A stretch of 64,000 bases of DNA from Planococcus kocurii (GTDB lineage Bacteria > Bacillota > Bacilli > Bacillales_A > Planococcaceae). The notes under the pieces were generated by a model that saw nothing but the letters and a program-made list of their open reading frames with translations, was not told where the DNA came from and ran no database searches. Position numbers and translations under genes: made by a program. The DNA lies in NCBI RefSeq assembly GCF_001465835.2, contig NZ_CP013661.2:620001-684000 (forward strand), in the 5' to 3' direction. Of this stretch, positions 50,289-59,084 are shown in pieces. Positions within the stretch are counted from its first letter, which is position 1, and every line of letters starts with the position of its first letter.

Positions 50289-50389
50289 AAATGCAGTCCC
50301 TCCCATATTTTTCATTATAGAGTCTGATGGCGAAATAGTCCAAAAAGTGATATGTTTTTAATGGATGGAATGATACAAGGGGGATGGAA

Positions 50390-51166
50390 ATGGACACAAT
50401 TCATTATGAACAGCGAAACAATTTAGCTTTTATTACCTTAAATCGGCCCGATTCAATGAATGCCTTTAACTATGACATGCTTCTTGAACTTGGACAGGTC
50501 GTAGAAGCAATCCGCATCAACCCAGATATCCGTGTAGTGGTATTTACCGGCGCTGGAGAAAAGGCTTTTAGTGTGGGCGCAGATTTGAAAGAACGTAAAA
50601 ACTTAACGGAACAGCATGTTAAACGCAATATCTTTAAAATTGGTGAAGTGTTCTCGACAATTGAGAATTTGCCGCAACCTACCATCGCGATGATGAATGG
50701 TTTTGCCTTTGGAGGCGGAATGGAATTGGCACTTGCCTGCGATTTCCGCATTGCTGCAGACGATACATTGCTTGGTCTGACTGAAACCAGTCTCGGCATT
50801 ATTCCAGGAGCTGGGGGGACGCAACGTTTGCCTCGCTTAATTGGAGAAGCCAAAGCACTAGAACTGATTTTGACTGCTCGTCGTCTAAAATCAACTGAAG
50901 CACTGGCATATGGATTAGTAACACGTGTAGCAGCACGTGATGAGCTTGCCGACGTGACAGCGGCTTTTGCTGATGCGATTCTTGCCAATGGTCCAATTGC
51001 TCTTCAACAGGCAAAATTCGCCATCAAGAATGGCATGAATACGGATTTACAAACAGGCCTGCACATCGAACGCAAGGCCTATGAAATCACTATCCCCACA
51101 GAAGATCGAGTTGAAGCGCTAACTGCTTTTGGCGAAAAAAGAAAACCCATATTTAAAGGTAGATAA
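50390..51166 (+). CDS. Enoyl-CoA hydratase/isomerase family protein
   Basis: Crotonase-fold enzyme of 258 residues hydrating enoyl-CoA. It has the N-terminal LNRPDSMNAF, oxyanion-hole segments SVGADLKER and AMMNGFAFGGGMELALACD, and the catalytic glutamates in LGLTETSLGIIPGAGG. The second ATG (50390) is chosen because AAGGGGG lies six bases upstream. No FadR box is seen before it, although other beta-oxidation genes in the window have one. Confidence 0.92.
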   Translation: MDTIHYEQRNNLAFITLNRPDSMNAFNYDMLLELGQVVEAIRINPDIRVVVFTGAGEKAFSVGADLKERKNLTEQHVKRNIFKIGEVFSTIENLPQPTIAMMNGFAFGGGMELALACDFRIAADDTLLGLTETSLGIIPGAGGTQRLPRLIGEAKALELILTARRLKSTEALAYGLVTRVAARDELADVTAAFADAILANGPIALQQAKFAIKNGMNTDLQTGLHIERKAYEITIPTEDRVEALTAFGEKRKPIFKGR

Positions 51167-51202
51167 AAAACGGAGCGGCTAAAAATAGCTGCTCCGTTTT
51201 TT
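51165..51202. terminator. Bidirectional terminator after the enoyl-CoA hydratase gene
   Basis: AAAAACGGAGC-GGCTA/TAGC-GCTCCGTTTTT with one mismatch, T tracts on both strands. It also serves the S9-like gene, whose stop is five bases away. Confidence 0.85.
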
Positions 51203-51207
51203 GATTT

Positions 51208-52797
51208 TCACACGTTATCTGCTAGCCAATTCACAATTTTTTCTAAACGAGCAATCCGGTGGTTTGGAGTGTCTGTACGTGATAAATCTGGAAAATGAAC
51301 GAATGTTGTTGCGATATTCATGCTTTTCAACTTCAGAGTTACTTGTTCTGCGACTTCTTCACCCAGCACAGCTATGCGACTAACATCAATCCAGTCAGCC
51401 GATTCCACAGTATCCGTGATCGCGCTCAGAAGGTCTTTATAAGTAAAGTCCCGGCTTGCAGCCGCAAATTCCTGGCTATATCCTTGACTACCGCTTGGAT
51501 TGACGTAGAAAATGCCGAAACCGCTCGCTGCATAAAGTTGCATTTCCAGAGAAAAGGTGTTGGCAAACATCTCATGAGGGGTGTCATGAACTTTAATGAT
51601 TAAGGGATAGTTCTGACCTTCCTCAAAACTAGCAGGTTTTATTAGCCAGCCATGAACCACATCAATCGAACCTGTTGTAAAGGTAGTTTGTGCTTGGACC
51701 AACTCAGTATCTTCCATAAACTTTTGGTTAAACGAGGTCAACGCCTGATATTCACCGGTCGTAATCGTCAAACGATGGAGCTCTCCCGGTTGAATCGGAT
51801 TGCTACTGGCTAAAACTGCATAGACGCCGTCTCGTGAAACATCGTAATCATACACATGTTCCATGTCAGGTGAAGCTGGGAAAATCATTCCATCAAGCGA
51901 CGCAAAGTACAAGCGCACATCCCCCATCGTCGATACTTGGAAATACAAATGATCGTCTTTTGTCCAGACAACGGCAGGTGCAACTGCCTTCTTGTAATCA
52001 CTAATTGCGTAATCACCAATAGGTGCATCCATCCCTTCCGTCAAACAAAAGCGAGTATTTGTTAGTAAGTCTGCGATATAAAGTTCAGTATGGGTTACAT
52101 CTCCGTAATAACGCATGCTACCGGTATAAGCGATTTTTGAATCGTCATGTGAAAAAGCGGCATCATTAAAATACCCTTGCCCTTCTGTCAGCATGGTTTG
52201 TTGCGCTGTTTTAGTATCGTACAAATAGAGAGGCTGATGAGGATTTTTTTGTAGATTGCCGGTCAAGCCAAAGACTATTTTTTCACCGTCATGCGAAACG
52301 GCTTTTAAATGATGATTGAAATTTCCTTGTGTCACAAATTCCACACTTTTCGATTCATGATCTACTAAGCCAATTTGACTGTAGCTTTGTGACTGCGTAT
52401 CTTCTTTTTTCACTGCGGCATTAATCCAAATTTTTGTTCCGCAAGGTGCCCATTCGAATCGATCTACCCCATTCTCAAAACGGGTCAACCTGTTCATTTT
52501 TCCATCAGCGATTGATAATACAAACAATTGCTTTTCTTTTCCTCGATCGAATAAAAAAGCGACAGCTGTTCCATCAGTTGACCACCGCGGGGAAAGGACT
52601 CTTCCTGCGCCATTTGTCCACTGACTTTGTTGCCCCGTTTTTAAGTCGATATGATACAGATGCGTTGTGTACGTATTTTCCTTTTCGTCTATTTGCGTAC
52701 GGACGAAAACTACTCTTTTTCCATCCGGTGAAATTTGAGGATCTGTCACTGAAATCAATTTCGTTAAATCGCTACTTTCTACTACTTTTTTCACCAC
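51208..52797 (-). CDS. S9-peptidase-like beta-propeller protein lacking the catalytic triad
   Basis: Protein of 529 residues. The N-terminal part (about 1-370) is a beta-propeller with repeated (I/V)S.DG and SPRWSTDG motifs, as in acylaminoacyl peptidases of the YuxL type. The C-terminal alpha/beta domain begins normally (PLIIKVHDTPHEMFANTF, NPSGSQGYSQEF) but then appears cut: the Ser motif GGSYGG, the Asp loop and the catalytic His are all absent. Compared with YuxL-type proteins (about 650 residues) roughly 100 residues are missing, in frame, between RIAVLGE and EVAEQ. The start is GTG at 52797, after AAAGGAG. Confidence 0.8.
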   Translation of the reverse strand: MVKKVVESSDLTKLISVTDPQISPDGKRVVFVRTQIDEKENTYTTHLYHIDLKTGQQSQWTNGAGRVLSPRWSTDGTAVAFLFDRGKEKQLFVLSIADGKMNRLTRFENGVDRFEWAPCGTKIWINAAVKKEDTQSQSYSQIGLVDHESKSVEFVTQGNFNHHLKAVSHDGEKIVFGLTGNLQKNPHQPLYLYDTKTAQQTMLTEGQGYFNDAAFSHDDSKIAYTGSMRYYGDVTHTELYIADLLTNTRFCLTEGMDAPIGDYAISDYKKAVAPAVVWTKDDHLYFQVSTMGDVRLYFASLDGMIFPASPDMEHVYDYDVSRDGVYAVLASSNPIQPGELHRLTITTGEYQALTSFNQKFMEDTELVQAQTTFTTGSIDVVHGWLIKPASFEEGQNYPLIIKVHDTPHEMFANTFSLEMQLYAASGFGIFYVNPSGSQGYSQEFAAASRDFTYKDLLSAITDTVESADWIDVSRIAVLGEEVAEQVTLKLKSMNIATTFVHFPDLSRTDTPNHRIARLEKIVNWLADNV

Positions 52798-52910
52798 TTT
52801 GTATACTCCTTTACGCGTTTATTGCTCACCAATGAAAACCACCAGTTTTACCAATCAAAGTCTACCACAAACGACGATGCAGAAAGAAGATAAGGTATGT
52901 GATAGCCATA

Positions 52911-52940
52911 TAAAAAAGGCTCCGATTCAATCTCGGAACC
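52911..52940 (-). terminator. Terminator of the acyl-CoA ligase gene
   Basis: GGTTCCGA/TCGGAGCC (one G-U) with a seven-base loop, followed by TTTTTT on the minus strand. Confidence 0.85.
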
Positions 52941-52968
52941 TCTTTCTTATACTTAATCTGGCACTGCC

Positions 52969-54522
52969 TTATTTCTGCATCGCTTGGTCTTTTAGCGATC
53001 GCCGTAAAATTTTCCCAGTTGTATTCTTCGGCAACTCTTTAAGAACTTCAAACTGTCTTGGCACTTTGTATTTTGCTAAATGCTCTGTGCAATAAGCTTT
53101 AAGATCTTCTATAGAAACCGCTGGATCCTTTAATACTACATAAGCATTAACTTCTTCACCGAAGTCTGGATCCGGTAAACCGACAACTGCGGCTTCTAAG
53201 ATTGCAGGATGAGCAAAAAGCACTTCTTCCACTTCTCGTGGATAAACGTTGTAACCGCCGACGATAATCATATCTTTTTTGCGGTCTACAATATAGAAGT
53301 ACCCTTCTTCATCAACACGTGCTAAATCACCCGTATAAAGCCAGCCATCACGAATTGCTGAAGCTGTTTCTTCAGGCATTTTGTAATAACCTTTCATGAC
53401 GTTCGGTCCACGAACAATCAATTCACCCACCTCGTTTGTTGCTACTTCTTCACCTAATTCGTTAACCACTTTGTTTTCTACATTGATAATGGAAGTACCA
53501 ATTGAGCCCGCTTTACGCTCACGATCAATCGGGTTAAAGCACGTAACTGGTGATGCTTCAGATAAGCCATAGCCTTCTGAAATACGCACATTGAATTTGT
53601 CTTCGAAACTATGCAACAAAGCAACCGGCATTGCGGAACCTCCTGACACCGCAAGACGAATAGACGCAAAATCCGCTGGGTCAATGTCTGGCAATTGGTT
53701 CATAAAGTTAAACATAGTTGGTACGCCAGCAAAAACGCTTGCTTTGTGTGTTTTAATCGCATCAAACACTTCTTTTGGATGAAAGCGTGGAATCAAAACA
53801 ATTGTCGCACCTTGTAATAATGGTGCGTTAACTACTACTGTTAATGCAAATACATGGAAAACTGGCAAAGTTGCTACTACCCGATCATTTCCACCAATTT
53901 GCAAATACGCTCCAACATCACGTGCGTTTGAATATAAATTCTGATGTGTCAGTAGTGCGCCTTTTGGCTTTCCAGTGGTACCCGATGTGTATAAAATGAC
54001 GGCATTATCATCTGCTGCAACTTCTGCAAAAGTATTAGTTGCTGTTGAACGAGCCAACAGATTTGTAAATGAATACACCTTCTTTTGAACAGCTTCAGGC
54101 AATTGCATCATTTTCTCTTGTGTCGATGGATCTGTTTCACAAATAATATACGATTCTACAAAAGGCAGTGCTTGATGTGCTTTTTCTATGAGCGGAAGTA
54201 AGGCGTCTAATGCTACTACTACTTTTGCATCACTATCATTGACTATGTAAGCGATTTCATCGGGGCTATAAATAGGATTGATGGGGACACTTGTAGCTCC
54301 CAAGCGCATTGTGGCGTATAGTGCAATTAAAAAATGTGGCGTATTGCTTAAAAGAAGTGCAACATGATCGCCTTTTTTTACGCCTAAACTTTGTAAAGAA
54401 TTAGCAAAAACAGCAACTGTTTGATCAAATTCACCATAGCTTGTATCTTTCCCCATAAAGCTATAAGCGACTTTTGCAGAATCCTGTTGTGAAATTTCAT
54501 GAACACGTGTCATTAAATTCAT
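52969..54522 (-). CDS. lcfB: Long-chain fatty acid-CoA ligase (LcfB/YhfL type)
   Basis: AMP-forming ligase of about 517 residues that activates long-chain fatty acids for beta-oxidation. It has the P-loop ILYTSGTTGKPKGALLTH (about 160-177), the adenylate motif ISEGYGLSEASPV, DGWLYTGDLARVDEEG and the C-terminal KDMIIVGGYNVYPREVEE with the catalytic Lys in TGKILRR. A perfect FadR operator lies upstream. The ATG at 54522 is favoured by spacing from GAGGG. In Bacillus the homologue lies near lplJ and yhfH, as it does here. Confidence 0.93.
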   Translation of the reverse strand: MNLMTRVHEISQQDSAKVAYSFMGKDTSYGEFDQTVAVFANSLQSLGVKKGDHVALLLSNTPHFLIALYATMRLGATSVPINPIYSPDEIAYIVNDSDAKVVVALDALLPLIEKAHQALPFVESYIICETDPSTQEKMMQLPEAVQKKVYSFTNLLARSTATNTFAEVAADDNAVILYTSGTTGKPKGALLTHQNLYSNARDVGAYLQIGGNDRVVATLPVFHVFALTVVVNAPLLQGATIVLIPRFHPKEVFDAIKTHKASVFAGVPTMFNFMNQLPDIDPADFASIRLAVSGGSAMPVALLHSFEDKFNVRISEGYGLSEASPVTCFNPIDRERKAGSIGTSIINVENKVVNELGEEVATNEVGELIVRGPNVMKGYYKMPEETASAIRDGWLYTGDLARVDEEGYFYIVDRKKDMIIVGGYNVYPREVEEVLFAHPAILEAAVVGLPDPDFGEEVNAYVVLKDPAVSIEDLKAYCTEHLAKYKVPRQFEVLKELPKNTTGKILRRSLKDQAMQK

Positions 54523-54541
54523 CTTCATCCCTCTTTCGCGT

Positions 54542-54604: not shown

Positions 54605-54632
54605 ACAGGCACCGTAAAATTACGGTGCCTGT
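54605..54632 (-). terminator. Hairpin at the end of the permease gene
   Basis: ACAGGCACCGTA/TACGGTGCCTGT, perfect 12-bp stem that includes the stop codon. The T tract is poor. Confidence 0.55.
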
Positions 54633-56557
54633 AAGTGAGCGACATAGCGCCAACGAATCAAGAAAAAGTATAAAATTTGCGCCACTGTAAATCCGCCAAG
54701 CACAATGGACATTTCACCAAGAATCGACAACTCAGCAAATTCATCCCATACAACTTGCAACGAAATGAACGCAAATGCACTGTGAAGTAAAGCAAGTAAC
54801 CACGGCAAAAAGAATTGAGGAATAAGTTGCCGGTTCACAATTTTCCCTAGCTCTTTGTCAGTCATCCCTAGACGAGTTAGCAATTTATATTGCTTACGAT
54901 CCCGTTCAAGACCTGTATACAATTTAAAGTAGATAAAGCTCCCTGCTGCCAACAAAAAGACAGCTGCTACCATAACTCCGATAAACAACAACAAAGCAAA
55001 AGAAGATTTAAACCACCGATAATCGGCGCCAGGATTTTCAAAGAAAAAATTAACGTCACTAAAATTGGCAGTTTCCACTGCCTCATCAACTATCGCCGTT
55101 AACCGATTGCCAATATTCATTGTTTCTGTCCAATTTAATACATCAAAGGCATAGTAAGAGAAATTTGATTTTCCAGCTTCGTAGCCTAGTAGCGGTTGAT
55201 CGATGGCTCGATAATCGGCGTCACTAACAACAATCGTATTGATGTTTAATGTGTGAATTGGAAACACAACATGCGGATACGTTGAACGAAGCGATAAAGG
55301 TACATCACTTTCGAGCAATACGGTATCGACGCTAGCACTTTGCAACTCTTTTAAAGAATCTAATGAAAATGGTACAAATAGCCCTTCTCCTTGCTGCAAT
55401 TGCGCTGGTTCAAAATCAAGCGCTGTTGCTAAGCGATTAAATTCGGACAGCGCTAAAATATCGACGTCGTTTCCAGTAGCCGCTGAGGTTTGACGTTTGA
55501 CCGTCAATTCGACCATATCGTAGGATAATTGCTCATCTCTTAATTGGCTCGCTAGTCTGTCGATATGCTCTTCTTCCAACTCATTGTCGTCAAACGAAAT
55601 ATAAACAAGGCCTAATGGATTTGATTCACGGAAATCTCCTGTATAAGACATAAAAGACGCCAAAGTTCCGACTGTCAAAAAAGCTACCGTCGAAACGATA
55701 GTGACAATAAAAAACATTTGAGCACTGTCTTTTAATTTAACTGAAGCCTCGGCCAACGACACTAAGCGCGTTTTTTTCCAATATACAATCTTTTTTCGTT
55801 TGTATAGTTGCAGGGAAAAATGAAGTGTATGCGTGAAAAAGAGATACGTACCGAAAGTCGCAAGTGGCGGAACGATAAAAACCATTTGGTACACTGTTTG
55901 ATCTGATACATTTGCCGCAAATGTATAGGCAGAAGCTAAAAAGACAATACCCATAATCGCTAGCACAGTAGAAGATTTCGACTCTTCCTCGACCTTCCAA
56001 AAGCCTTGCAACAAATCGACGATTCGCTTCGTCCGAATAAACCCGACGCTGACAAAGGATATAATGACAAACAGACTAGCGAATGCCGCAATCGTCAGCA
56101 AAAAGGGCTCCCATGAAACATAGAGGGGCAACGCATCTAATTCCATAATCTCTCGGCCGATCATAAAAAAGAATTTAGAAAACGCAAAACCGAAAACGAT
56201 TCCAGTTACAGTTGAAATTGTTCCAATAATGAGCATTTCGAAAAAAATTAACTTGTTCAGTTGCTTTTTTGACATTCCCAAATGCATCAACACGCCGAAT
56301 TCCTTTGAACGTGCCTGTAAAAAAGCGCTCATCGAATAAAACAAGAAAAATAACGTAAAAATATACAACACTATTTCTGCAATCATCATGCCTCGTATAG
56401 CAAGCAGTTGCAATCCATCCTTGTCAAATATCGGATGAAAAATAAACATCGAGCAGACAAAAAATACCATGACAGAAAAGACGCTAGCTAAAAAGAACGC
56501 TGCGTAATTTCTTCGGTTACGGACAACGTTATGGTAAGCGAGTTGCCGAAAGGTCAT
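54620..56557 (-). CDS. Bacitracin-type (BceB-like) ABC transporter permease
   Basis: Permease of 645 residues for a peptide-antibiotic sensing and detoxification module. Layout: TM1, then helices 2-4 (to about 150), a helix pair to about 230, and a large extracellular domain (about 315-530) between helices 7 and 8, the substrate-sensing domain of BceB proteins. Two FtsX domains are present. The start at 56557 follows GGAGG; the longer frame lies inside the ATPase gene. It works with the ATPase and the two-component pair upstream. Confidence 0.9.
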   Translation of the reverse strand: MTFRQLAYHNVVRNRRNYAAFFLASVFSVMVFFVCSMFIFHPIFDKDGLQLLAIRGMMIAEIVLYIFTLFFLFYSMSAFLQARSKEFGVLMHLGMSKKQLNKLIFFEMLIIGTISTVTGIVFGFAFSKFFFMIGREIMELDALPLYVSWEPFLLTIAAFASLFVIISFVSVGFIRTKRIVDLLQGFWKVEEESKSSTVLAIMGIVFLASAYTFAANVSDQTVYQMVFIVPPLATFGTYLFFTHTLHFSLQLYKRKKIVYWKKTRLVSLAEASVKLKDSAQMFFIVTIVSTVAFLTVGTLASFMSYTGDFRESNPLGLVYISFDDNELEEEHIDRLASQLRDEQLSYDMVELTVKRQTSAATGNDVDILALSEFNRLATALDFEPAQLQQGEGLFVPFSLDSLKELQSASVDTVLLESDVPLSLRSTYPHVVFPIHTLNINTIVVSDADYRAIDQPLLGYEAGKSNFSYYAFDVLNWTETMNIGNRLTAIVDEAVETANFSDVNFFFENPGADYRWFKSSFALLLFIGVMVAAVFLLAAGSFIYFKLYTGLERDRKQYKLLTRLGMTDKELGKIVNRQLIPQFFLPWLLALLHSAFAFISLQVVWDEFAELSILGEMSIVLGGFTVAQILYFFLIRWRYVAHLQAP

Positions 56558-57302
56558 TAACGGATCCTCCCAACAACGACAAAACATTTAAAATTCGCTG
56601 GTAAAATGTCTGGCGTCGTTCATCTCCATAAATTTCATTGAAGAACTCACCATCTTTGATAAACAGCACACGATCACAATAACTTGCTGCAATCGGATCA
56701 TGCGTTACCATAATGATTGTCGTGTTATTGTCTTTAGCAATATTCGATAAAATTTCAAGTACGTCACGTGAAGATCTAGAATCTAAATTTCCTGTCGGTT
56801 CATCTGCCAAAATAAGTGCTGGCTGATGGATAAGCGCACGTCCAATAGCTGTTCTTTGCGCTTCTCCACCTGAAATTTCGTTTGGTTTTTTATGAAGGAT
56901 TGATGTCAATCCGAGACGTTTCGCAATTCGCAACACGCGACGTGCCATTTCATCAATTGGCACATAATCAAGCGTTAACGGCAAAACTAAATTTTCTTCA
57001 ACCGTCAGCATCTGCAGTAGGTTAAAGTCTTGAAAAACAAAACCTAGTTGTCTTCTACGAAATAACGCCAATTCATTTTTATTCAACAAATGTGGATTGG
57101 TTCCGTCGATTAAAATCTCTCCAGAAGTTAACGAGTCAATTGTTGAAATCAAGTTTAGCAGCGTTGTTTTACCACTCCCTGAAGGTCCCATTACTGCCAG
57201 AAATTCACCTTTTTCCACTGTGAAGCTCAACTGGTTCACTGCCCGGTGCGTCACTTTCCCCTCGTAGACCTTGGTCACTTCGTCGATTTTCACTACTGTC
57301 AT
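56529..57302 (-). CDS. BceA-like ABC transporter ATPase
   Basis: ATP-binding subunit of 257 residues. Walker A GPSGSGKTT (about 40), Q-loop FVFQDFNLLQML, signature ISGGEAQRTAIGRA (a variant of LSGGQ with Glu), Walker B LILADEPTGNLDS and the switch His in VTHDP. The chosen ATG at 57302 follows AGGAGG. It overlaps the permease by 29 bases and the histidine kinase by 98 bases. Confidence 0.92.
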   Translation of the reverse strand: MTVVKIDEVTKVYEGKVTHRAVNQLSFTVEKGEFLAVMGPSGSGKTTLLNLISTIDSLTSGEILIDGTNPHLLNKNELALFRRRQLGFVFQDFNLLQMLTVEENLVLPLTLDYVPIDEMARRVLRIAKRLGLTSILHKKPNEISGGEAQRTAIGRALIHQPALILADEPTGNLDSRSSRDVLEILSNIAKDNNTTIIMVTHDPIAASYCDRVLFIKDGEFFNEIYGDERRQTFYQRILNVLSLLGGSVNDLSATRLP

Positions 57303-58311
57303 CATTTTCCTCCTGTGTTGCAAAATCTTGGTTGAAGAATCGTACAGATACAGTTGTCCCTTCTCCTTGAATAGAAGAAATCAACAATTCATGACCCAGC
57401 TTCCCGCAAATTTCTTTTGCCAAGTACAAGCCCATTCCTGTGGATTCTCCAGTTTTCCGTCCATTTTCTCCAGTGAAGAACGCTTTAGTTATACGTGGTA
57501 AATCAGAAGAAGAAATACCGATTCCTTCGTCGCGAACTGTCAAGAGCGTATTGCCGTTCGAACATTCGGCAGCAATCAGCACTTTTTTATTCGGTTCAAA
57601 TGTGTACTTAACCGCATTTGTTAAAAATTGACCCATGATAAATTTCATCCATTTTTGATCCGTTGCTACAACGTGCTCTTCTGCTATTGAAATTTCAGGG
57701 TATACACGTTTTGAAATAAATAATCGTTTATTTTCTGTAACTACTTCACTAACTAAAGACCGTAAATTAATTTTTTCAATTTGCATATCTTGCTCAAATG
57801 TATCTAAACGTGCATTCATCAAAACTGTGTCCAGCCCTGCTTTTAAACGGTCCATTTCTTCATGAACACTTTTCTTATCAAGCTCCTGCTCTTCTTGAAG
57901 TAAGAGGTGCATAACCGATAAAGGAGTTTTCATTTGATGTACCCACTGGTTCATAAACTGCAAATGGCGGTTTTGAGAAGCATATAAAGATTGCACTTCA
58001 TGCTGGTACAGTCGATATAATTTTTGCAGGTAGATTTCATTTTGTACTTGCTCAGGTGACTTCCCTTCACGTTGAAGCATATGTTCCATATTCTGTGGAG
58101 TGGCCAAAATACGTTGATAATATTGGTAACGTTTAACAAAGCGTGTCAAAAGAAACGAAATGACCAAAACTGTGCTAATGACGAATGAATAAATAGCTGT
58201 ATCCACATTACGAAAACCATCTAGCCAGTACAGCAGCATAATAAAAGCTACCAGCACCATTTGAAAGACGATGAATGCTGCGTGTTCTTTCAAAAATAAT
58301 CGCCACATCAT
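57205..58311 (-). CDS. BceS-like intramembrane-sensing histidine kinase
   Basis: Kinase of 368 residues. Two helices at the N terminus (about 12-30 and 36-55) with almost no extracellular loop, the intramembrane-sensing layout. Phospho-His is in NQWVHQMKTPLSVM, followed by the ATPase boxes QFLTNAVKYTF (N), DEGIGI (G1) and TGMGLYLAKEI (G2). It probably receives its signal from the BceAB-like transporter rather than directly. The C terminus runs on about 45 residues past the usual end in a polar tail, because the frame overlaps the ATPase by 98 bases. The ATG overlaps the regulator's stop codon. Confidence 0.92.
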   Translation of the reverse strand: MMWRLFLKEHAAFIVFQMVLVAFIMLLYWLDGFRNVDTAIYSFVISTVLVISFLLTRFVKRYQYYQRILATPQNMEHMLQREGKSPEQVQNEIYLQKLYRLYQHEVQSLYASQNRHLQFMNQWVHQMKTPLSVMHLLLQEEQELDKKSVHEEMDRLKAGLDTVLMNARLDTFEQDMQIEKINLRSLVSEVVTENKRLFISKRVYPEISIAEEHVVATDQKWMKFIMGQFLTNAVKYTFEPNKKVLIAAECSNGNTLLTVRDEGIGISSSDLPRITKAFFTGENGRKTGESTGMGLYLAKEICGKLGHELLISSIQGEGTTVSVRFFNQDFATQEENDDSSENRRSDQGLRGESDAPGSEPVELHSGKR

Positions 58312-59012
58312 GCTTCCTCCTCGTGAAGCAATAGACGGTATCCCGCCCCTCTAACCGTTTCAATCGTAGACTTCACAGTGTAATCAGCTAGTTTTTTACG
58401 AACTCTCGTCATATTCACATTTAGCGTGTTCTCATCCACAAATGCCTGATCGTCCCATAATTCCTCAAGCAATTGCTCACGTGATACTACTTTCGGATAA
58501 TTAGATAACAAGAGTTCCATAATTGTGCACTCTTTTTTTTGCAGCGGAATAACTTCAGCCTTTACATGCAGCTCCATTCGTTCCATATACAGTATGATGC
58601 GCCCCACTTTGACAGAGCGTTCTTCTTGTTTTGGTGCGTATTCCCCATAAGCTCTACGCAAATGGCTCCTTATTTTTGCAAGGACGATTTCATAATGGAA
58701 AGGTTTCGTAATGAAATCATCTCCACCATTTTCCAAAGCGAAAACTTGATCCATTTCACCTGAGCGAGCTGAAATGAAGAGGATTGGACACGTGCTTTGC
58801 TGCCTGAGCTGACGGCACCAATAATAGCCATCGTAAGAAGGCAGGTTAATATCCAGTAAAATCAAATGGGGATCAAAAGCTTCGAATTCTTCGATGATTT
58901 GATCAAAATCTTTTGCGGTCTCTACTTGGTAATGGTACTTCCTTAAAGTCTCTGCCAATAACTCCGCAATTTTCAAATCATCTTCTACTATGAAAACCCG
59001 TTGAACAGCCAC
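58308..59012 (-). CDS. BceR-like OmpR-family response regulator
   Basis: Regulator of 234 residues. The receiver domain has VEDD, the phosphoacceptor in LILLDINLPSYDG and KPFHYE; the C-terminal winged helix has VSREQLLEELWDD and NTLNVNMTRVRKKL. It would activate the ABC genes that follow. The start is GTG at 59012 with GGGGG seven bases upstream; the longer frame begins in the lplJ terminator. An extended -10 sits just upstream. Confidence 0.93.
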   Translation of the reverse strand: MAVQRVFIVEDDLKIAELLAETLRKYHYQVETAKDFDQIIEEFEAFDPHLILLDINLPSYDGYYWCRQLRQQSTCPILFISARSGEMDQVFALENGGDDFITKPFHYEIVLAKIRSHLRRAYGEYAPKQEERSVKVGRIILYMERMELHVKAEVIPLQKKECTIMELLLSNYPKVVSREQLLEELWDDQAFVDENTLNVNMTRVRKKLADYTVKSTIETVRGAGYRLLLHEEEA

Positions 59013-59040
59013 ATTGATTCCCCCTTTCCTTTTTCTTTCC

Positions 59041-59049
59041 ATTTTAACA
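59041..59049 (-). promoter_or_regulatory. Extended -10 promoter of the bce-type operon
   Basis: TGTTAAAAT forms a TGnTATAAT-like extended -10 with no -35 consensus. It lies at the T tract of the lplJ terminator and gives a leader of about 20 bases. Confidence 0.45.
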
Positions 59050-59074
59050 AAAGAGCCTGCATAAAAGCAGGCTC
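59048..59074 (-). terminator. Terminator of lplJ
   Basis: GAGCCTGC/GCAGGCTC with a six-base loop and TTTTGTT on the minus strand. Confidence 0.85.
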
Positions 59075-59084
59075 TCAGCAATTC

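Follow-up and report, generated by a model that had tools for sequence, protein, structure and literature searches.

An S9C peptidase homologue of Planococcus that has lost its catalytic triad: a probable recurrent pseudoenzyme with a retained propeller block

Introduction

What becomes of a peptidase gene whose reading frame is intact and whose catalytic residues are gone? Bacterial S9 proteins are usually named and viewed as peptidases, and the question is raised by a gene in a stretch of 64,000 nucleotides of the Planococcus kocurii genome (contig NZ_CP013661.2, positions 620,001 to 684,000), which is referred to here as the window. An earlier reading of the window, the original prediction, proposed that the encoded protein lost its whole triad in frame and is kept for a non-enzymatic role rather than decaying. 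The analysis described below favours the view that the protein is a recurrent S9C pseudoenzyme, that is, a propeller with a putative catalysis-independent, probably binding, role; we assign this reading a probability of about 0.67. Its main rival is a decaying gene.

Architecture of the window protein

The gene and its translation signal are located as follows.

51208..52797, minus strand: gene of the putative S9C-like pseudoenzyme (ORF and translation: 529 aa, GTG start, frame intact)
52806..52812, minus strand: Shine-Dalgarno-like AAAGGAG, 8 bases upstream of the GTG, by eye

The ribosome binding site on which the original prediction had relied is therefore present, as judged by eye. A promoter scan of positions 51100-53100 returned 5 sites against 4.1 expected by chance, none of them immediately upstream of the S9 gene.

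Pfam and fold searches resolve the window protein into a beta-propeller and a reduced alpha/beta-hydrolase remnant. DPPIV_N and PD40 are matched above cut-off, and Peptidase_S9 (PF00326) passes its curated cut-off (27.6 vs 22.6 bits) with the first third of the profile only, positions 2-70 of 213. The N-terminal beta-propeller expected of S9C peptidases is thus recognized by Pfam, by the predicted model and by the fold search. Assignment to the TolB-type propeller proteins was considered and rejected, as NCBIfam TIGR02800 scores 76.9 bits against a cut-off of 343 and the likeness is confined to the propeller.

The structure prediction that had been proposed as a check yielded an AlphaFold2 model with pLDDT 82.5 and pTM 0.86; the underlying alignment included full-length relatives, which biases the remnant towards a native-looking shape. 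The nearest solved relative in sequence and fold alike is the Geobacillus S9 carboxypeptidase (PDB 8wt1), which has the same two-domain fold over the kept parts (TMq 0.88), and the S9 peptidase of D. radiodurans (5yzm/5yzn) is similar over the same parts with TMq 0.76-0.82. Deletions were referred to L038, a full-length orthologue of 658 aa from Planomicrobium stackebrandtii (genome G044), which aligns with 8wt1 over residues 9-658 (636 bits). L038 has the same neighbouring genes and the same propeller block (described below) as the window protein and differs from it by its length and intact triad. Full-length S9C orthologues of this kind are presumably the proteins that the original prediction labelled “YuxL-type”.

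Loss of the catalytic residues

Comparison with L038 places five changes within the window gene.

51357..51358, minus strand: junction of an 86-aa in-frame deletion, between window residues 480 and 481 (L038 520-605 missing)
51285..51286, minus strand: junction of a 4-aa deletion, between window residues 504 and 505 (L038 630-633, ADHN, missing)
52396..52411, minus strand: approximate site of the propeller-loop deletion, 31 aa (L038 131-137 and 141-164 missing)
51574..51588, minus strand: degenerate HGGPH, read as HDTPH, residues 404-408 (HGGPH in 39/39 full-length Planococcus rows, changed in 6/6 short forms)
51487..51501, minus strand: NPSGS for NPRGS, residues 433-437 (R in 39/39 full-length rows, S in 6/6 short forms)

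Two triad residues, S520 (nucleophile) and D600 (acid; L038 numbering), fall inside the 86-aa gap, and the 4-aa gap eliminates the catalytic His, H632, so that all three residues of the Ser-Asp-His triad of an active S9C peptidase are absent from the window protein. S520 is identified as the nucleophile by alignment to the D. radiodurans enzyme, for which S514A mutant structures are present in the PDB; D600 and H632 are presumed to be the acid and the catalytic His from the same alignment and from general knowledge of the family. The HGGP motif, which we take to be the oxyanion-region motif, is likewise missing. This is in contrast to 8wt1 and the D. radiodurans enzyme, which have GGSYGG, acid and His, whereas the window protein is without all three, without HGGPH and without the propeller loop.

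The ORF and the L038 alignment confirm an intact frame of 529 residues with the whole triad lost, as originally predicted, and the join between RIAVLGE and EVAEQ and the change of HGGPH to HDTPH also stand. The loss of “about 100 residues” was placed correctly at the hydrolase end; its size is 86 + 4 residues. The propeller-loop deletion, the NPSGS change and the three small gaps described below come in addition to what the original prediction listed.

DSSP assignments for the window model and a full-length model suggest that the 86-aa deletion takes out alphaC, beta6, alphaD and beta7 as whole elements, so that beta5 now leads into alphaE and beta8. Such unit-wise removal hints at how a smaller hydrolase fold could survive.

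The short forms of five other Planococcus genomes show how variable this region is. Four short forms share a 64-aa gap (L038 528-591), while the window genome (G000) and G045 have differing 86-aa gaps, 520-605 and 527-612, both of which span it. At the nucleophile position G008 and G027 have S, G009 and G045 have N and G006 has C, while in G000 the position is deleted; none of the six retains the acid or the His. The GGSYGG region, which the original prediction described as gone from the window protein, persists, altered or not, in relatives. Common to all six are the replacement of R470 by S and three small in-frame gaps of 1, 1 and 4 aa (the equivalents of G304, of W414 and of four residues near 485-490). 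The propeller-loop gaps are identical in five of the six, and the sixth has overlapping gaps of 6 + 15 aa. The loss was stepwise.

Distribution and ancestry in Planococcus

The S9 gene is found in all 46 Planococcus genomes, as a short form in six (G000, G006, G008, G009, G027 and G045), at full length in 39 and frameshifted in one (G038). The six short forms constitute a single clade, with support 1.0 in the gene tree and 0.935 in a tree built from five neighbouring genes, and together with the full-length forms of G002, G016, G031, G034, G037 and G044 they make up a 12-species group with support 1.0 in both trees. These six full-length members are the sister clade in the neighbour tree (0.891) and form no separate clade in the gene tree. 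The S9 tree comprises 45 of the 46 rows (without G038) and the neighbour tree likewise 45 (without G040, which had more than 40% gaps); the G038 locus, L024, was omitted from one S9 alignment. Because both trees unite the six short forms, a single loss followed by descent is indicated. The original prediction had held that a deletion unique to this assembly would count against retention. The triad loss is spread over 6 of the 46 genomes, and the exact breakpoints 520-605 belong to G000 alone among the six.

Synteny was scored with ten marker genes, of which the two adjacent ones are the following.

50384..51166, plus strand: enoyl-CoA hydratase-like neighbour, named by eye; adjacent marker in 44/46 Planococcus genomes
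52969..54528, minus strand: AMP-binding acyl-CoA ligase-like neighbour, named by eye; adjacent marker in 45/46 Planococcus genomes

The two genomes in which the first was not found, G021 and G026, have the S9 gene at a contig end, and so does G040, the one genome in which the second was not found. In G082 and G063, discussed below, the acyl-CoA ligase gene is likewise next to the short gene. Further along the window, positions 54620-59081 of the minus strand encode, in succession, an ABC permease, an ABC ATPase, a histidine kinase and a response regulator, by eye a BceAB-BceRS-type module, and the permease lies near the S9 locus in 45 of the 46 genomes. The genes around the locus offer no clue to what the S9-like protein does. 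Positions 51170-51199, which fall between the enoyl-CoA hydratase gene and the convergent S9 gene, contain an almost perfect inverted repeat that has T-tracts on both strands; by eye it is apparently a shared bidirectional terminator, and it is not among the sites of the promoter scan. We also note that contig C1 of the window genome (L096; 13,524 bases) can be aligned along its full length, in 3 pieces at 100%, with the 16,573-base plasmid pA26H3 of Planococcus sp. ANT_H26, and carries a heavy-metal P-type ATPase, an ArsR-type regulator and an ISL3 transposase.

An assembly or annotation artefact, or a catalytic part supplied by a separate gene, would be a trivial explanation of the short frames. 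In its favour, the gene of G038 is broken, and the same assembly splits genes next to it as well. The loss is, however, common to six species, and a search of G000 with L038 at E<=10 matched three pieces of the same ORF and neither a second copy nor a detached catalytic piece; we regard this explanation as scarcely credible. In the other five short-form genomes no second S9 locus was found at E<=0.001. L005, a protein of 682 aa with a PF00326 match, was considered as a replacement S9 enzyme and rejected, being of the CocE/NonD type by eye and unmatched by L038 at E<=10. As for the broken gene itself, the S9, acyl-CoA ligase and histidine kinase genes of Planococcus sp. 107-1 (L057/G038) are all split, and this assembly looks error-rich.

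Selection on the short forms

Selection was estimated with a codon model written for this analysis, which reproduces the IQ-TREE omega of 0.197 for the short clade; the six full-length sister species give 0.065. Neutrality (omega = 1) is rejected for the short clade with 2dlnL 554. Selection in the short clade is relaxed about threefold, yet far from neutral. In four neighbouring genes omega is alike in the two groups (0.050/0.053, 0.027/0.040, 0.031/0.032 and 0.045/0.043).

Single omega values are rough, owing to large synonymous distances. On the terminal branches they are 0.123 (G000), 0.168 (G045), 0.190 (G006), 0.220 (G009), 0.231 (G027) and 0.318 (G008), and omega = 1 is rejected on all six, most weakly with 2dlnL 8.4. 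Two internal branches (0.209 and 0.163) reject it as well, and a third (0.380, 2dlnL 2.6) does not; all nine values are below 1, and eight reject it. The closest pair, G008/G009, gives 0.234.

By region, omega in the short clade is 0.188 for the propeller, the value that the original prediction had proposed to compute, 0.079 for residues 276-330, 0.170 for the hydrolase remnant and 0.374 for the C-terminus. The purifying selection on the remnant could be taken to mean that other residues now support an altered catalytic chemistry or substrate. Against this, the nucleophile position reads S, N, C or a gap, acid and His are gone in every short form, HGGPH is scrambled and the G082 protein is nearly without a hydrolase domain, so an altered chemistry appears very improbable. 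Domain stability offers another setting for the remnant. In a cold-adapted Sporosarcina S9 enzyme, each domain on its own is less stable than the complete protein and the N-terminal helix is anchored to the hydrolase domain (PMC3574126). Interdependence of this kind would fit the hydrolase remnant being retained.

The relaxation bears more directly on slow decay, in which catalysis is unneeded and the residual constraint reflects avoidance of toxic misfolding or the short time since loss. The threefold higher omega than in the sister species is what decay would produce, as are the active-site motifs, which vary freely among the six, and the further deletions in G000 and G045. On the other hand, the loss is older than the split of the six species, and the branch values described above are all below 1. 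In a neutral simulation, about 8 premature stops have accumulated by 0.4 substitutions per codon and none of 200 runs is stop-free; five of the six terminal branches exceed this length. Together with the propeller block discussed below, these observations lead us to consider slow decay unlikely.

The six-species clade thus combines homology to an enzyme and loss of its catalytic residues with selection across species, the features by which a pseudoenzyme is recognized. The claim of the original prediction that the gene is kept rather than decaying is supported in that the triad loss is found in 6 of 46 genomes, omega is 0.197 for the clade and 0.123 for the window branch, and the propeller block is complete; it needs the qualification that constraint is about threefold weaker than in the full-length sisters. 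The prediction had also named full-length genes in related strains combined with relaxed selection as evidence against itself. The full-length gene is indeed present in related species and selection is relaxed, but it is not neutral.

Independent losses in the family

L038 is matched in 228 of 261 genomes of the family at E<=1e-40. Intact frames that lack the catalytic part occur in at least two more genomes, from two other genera: G082 (440 aa) and G063 (450 aa). The protein of G082 has 216 aa fewer than that of its relative G242, which is full-length and 76% identical to it, and is cut from just before HGGPH to the last helix. The frame of G063 ends soon after beta5, and the two genus mates examined are full-length. 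The propeller loop is absent from G063 and present in G082. With the Planococcus clade, these two losses imply that the catalytic part was lost at least three times. The count is a lower bound, since of the 218 members of the family with scores below 1e-200 (G038 and G056 among them are split) most were judged by score, and listed rows also by match range and frame length. The broken copies G038, G056 and G252 and the contig-end copy G251 were excluded from the dead-but-intact frames. In G056 (L119) and G252 (L118) the S9 gene is split into two frames; the former lies on a 5.7 kb contig, and the latter genome is 83% complete with 9% contamination.

G082 and G063 represent one fast-evolving species each. 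The propeller branch of G082 has an omega of 0.108 vs a background of 0.118, and its protein branch is 0.221 vs 0.083 for the sister (2.6 times); the protein branch of G063 is 1.23 vs 0.154 for a neighbouring gene (about eight times). The longer protein branches suggest loss followed by faster evolution, which also fits decay in progress. Decay draws further support from 33 of the 261 genomes, which lack a match to the S9 protein at E<=1e-40. Among the 20 of these that are listed, 10 belong to genus g14; the protein is accordingly dispensable in some genomes, for example in that genus.

The retained propeller block

One part of the propeller has remained untouched through the three losses.

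51802..51975, minus strand: retained propeller block, residues 275-332 (WTKDDHLYFQVSTMGDVRLYFASLDGMIFPASPDMEHV; L038 309-366)

Invariant residues were defined from 53 full-length rows (39 from Planococcus and 14 from others of the family), taken from the 218 family members mentioned above. These rows share 173 invariants, and the propeller without the lost loop accounts for 63 of them. All 17 invariants of the block are kept in all eight dead proteins, as against 17 of 46 in the rest of the propeller, and this preservation after three losses speaks against decay. The longest run of kept invariants across the eight is 18, which was reached in 0 of 20,000 permutations. Taken by subset, the corresponding permutation counts are 269/20,000, a weaker result, for the six alone and 11/20,000 for G063 alone; for G082 alone the count is 6502/20,000, the loss there being too recent to inform. 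When the block is set against the remaining retained regions, Fisher tests give 7.7e-5 (six) and 1.6e-5 (G063), with the block selected post hoc, after inspection of the data.

The opposite combination is found in five full-length relatives, each from a different family of the class outside this one. GGSYGG, acid, His and HGGP are present in all of them, and they keep 75-103 of 107 hydrolase invariants and 5-11 of the 17 block residues. These relatives are distant across the propeller as a whole (22-30 of 46 other propeller invariants kept), and their peptidase activity is assumed. Since the dead forms keep the block and the other-family relatives keep the motifs, block and catalytic motifs separate in both directions. 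Constraint at the DNA level was considered as a cause of the kept block and rejected, because its synonymous sites do vary: the neutral tree length is 9.4 for codons 276-330 vs 11.8 for the whole gene. Structural stiffness, rather than function, may account for the preservation of the block.

A pseudoenzyme with a propeller-borne role would have arisen as follows. The ancestor was presumably an S9C (acylaminoacyl-peptidase / S9 carboxypeptidase-like) enzyme, of the type still present in most of the family. The propeller of the active enzyme would already have had a second, catalysis-independent job carried by the block, most likely the binding of a protein or peptide partner, and once a lineage could do without hydrolysis it would have retained the protein for that job. 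The peptide binding suggested in the original prediction would be one possible form of this role. More tentatively, at somewhat under even odds, the S9C enzyme of the whole family may have a putative second binding function in one blade (WT..LYF..S..G..RLY.A.L.G...PA....EH), and the dead forms would be stand-alone binding propellers.

Relation to known pseudoenzymes and implications

DPP6 and DPP10 are eukaryotic S9 proteins with non-enzymatic roles that lack the Ser and keep the hydrolase domain, in contrast to the window protein, which lost the catalytic core. Another S9 protein, PREPL, is credited with a non-enzymatic role in the accessible part of PMC11385081; the S9 fold is used there beyond hydrolysis, as proposed here, but PREPL is an active hydrolase and eukaryotic. 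Pseudopeptidases as such are a known kind of protein (PMC11266112, accessible part). In prokaryotes, 42 of 966 serine proteases of five families are inactive, and in the accessible part of that paper the families seen are S1, S8, S12 and S14 (PMC2605481); these homologues are likewise conserved, but they belong to other families, S9 not being among those named there. Bacterial pseudo-orthocaspases are conserved inactive peptidase homologues (PMC6426788, accessible part) of yet another family with point changes in the dyad, whereas in the window protein the catalytic core is deleted. The open-access literature searched yielded no bacterial S9 form that repeatedly loses its catalytic core by deletion, nor anything on this gene among the entries for P. 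halocryophilus. Pseudopeptidases, and non-enzymatic roles of S9 proteins in animals, are therefore known, and the bacterial deletion form appears to be new as far as these searches go.

Automatic annotation misleads in such cases, as a PF00326 match above cut-off labels inactive proteins “S9 peptidase”. The short forms also provide a graded series of in-frame steps by which an alpha/beta-hydrolase domain is dismantled. Three losses at one locus with the same block untouched suggest that evolution can split a hidden second role from catalysis, and the kept block singles out candidate residues for that role. If the S9C enzyme of the whole family does carry a second binding function, the repeated loss of the peptidase would amount to a natural separation-of-function experiment.
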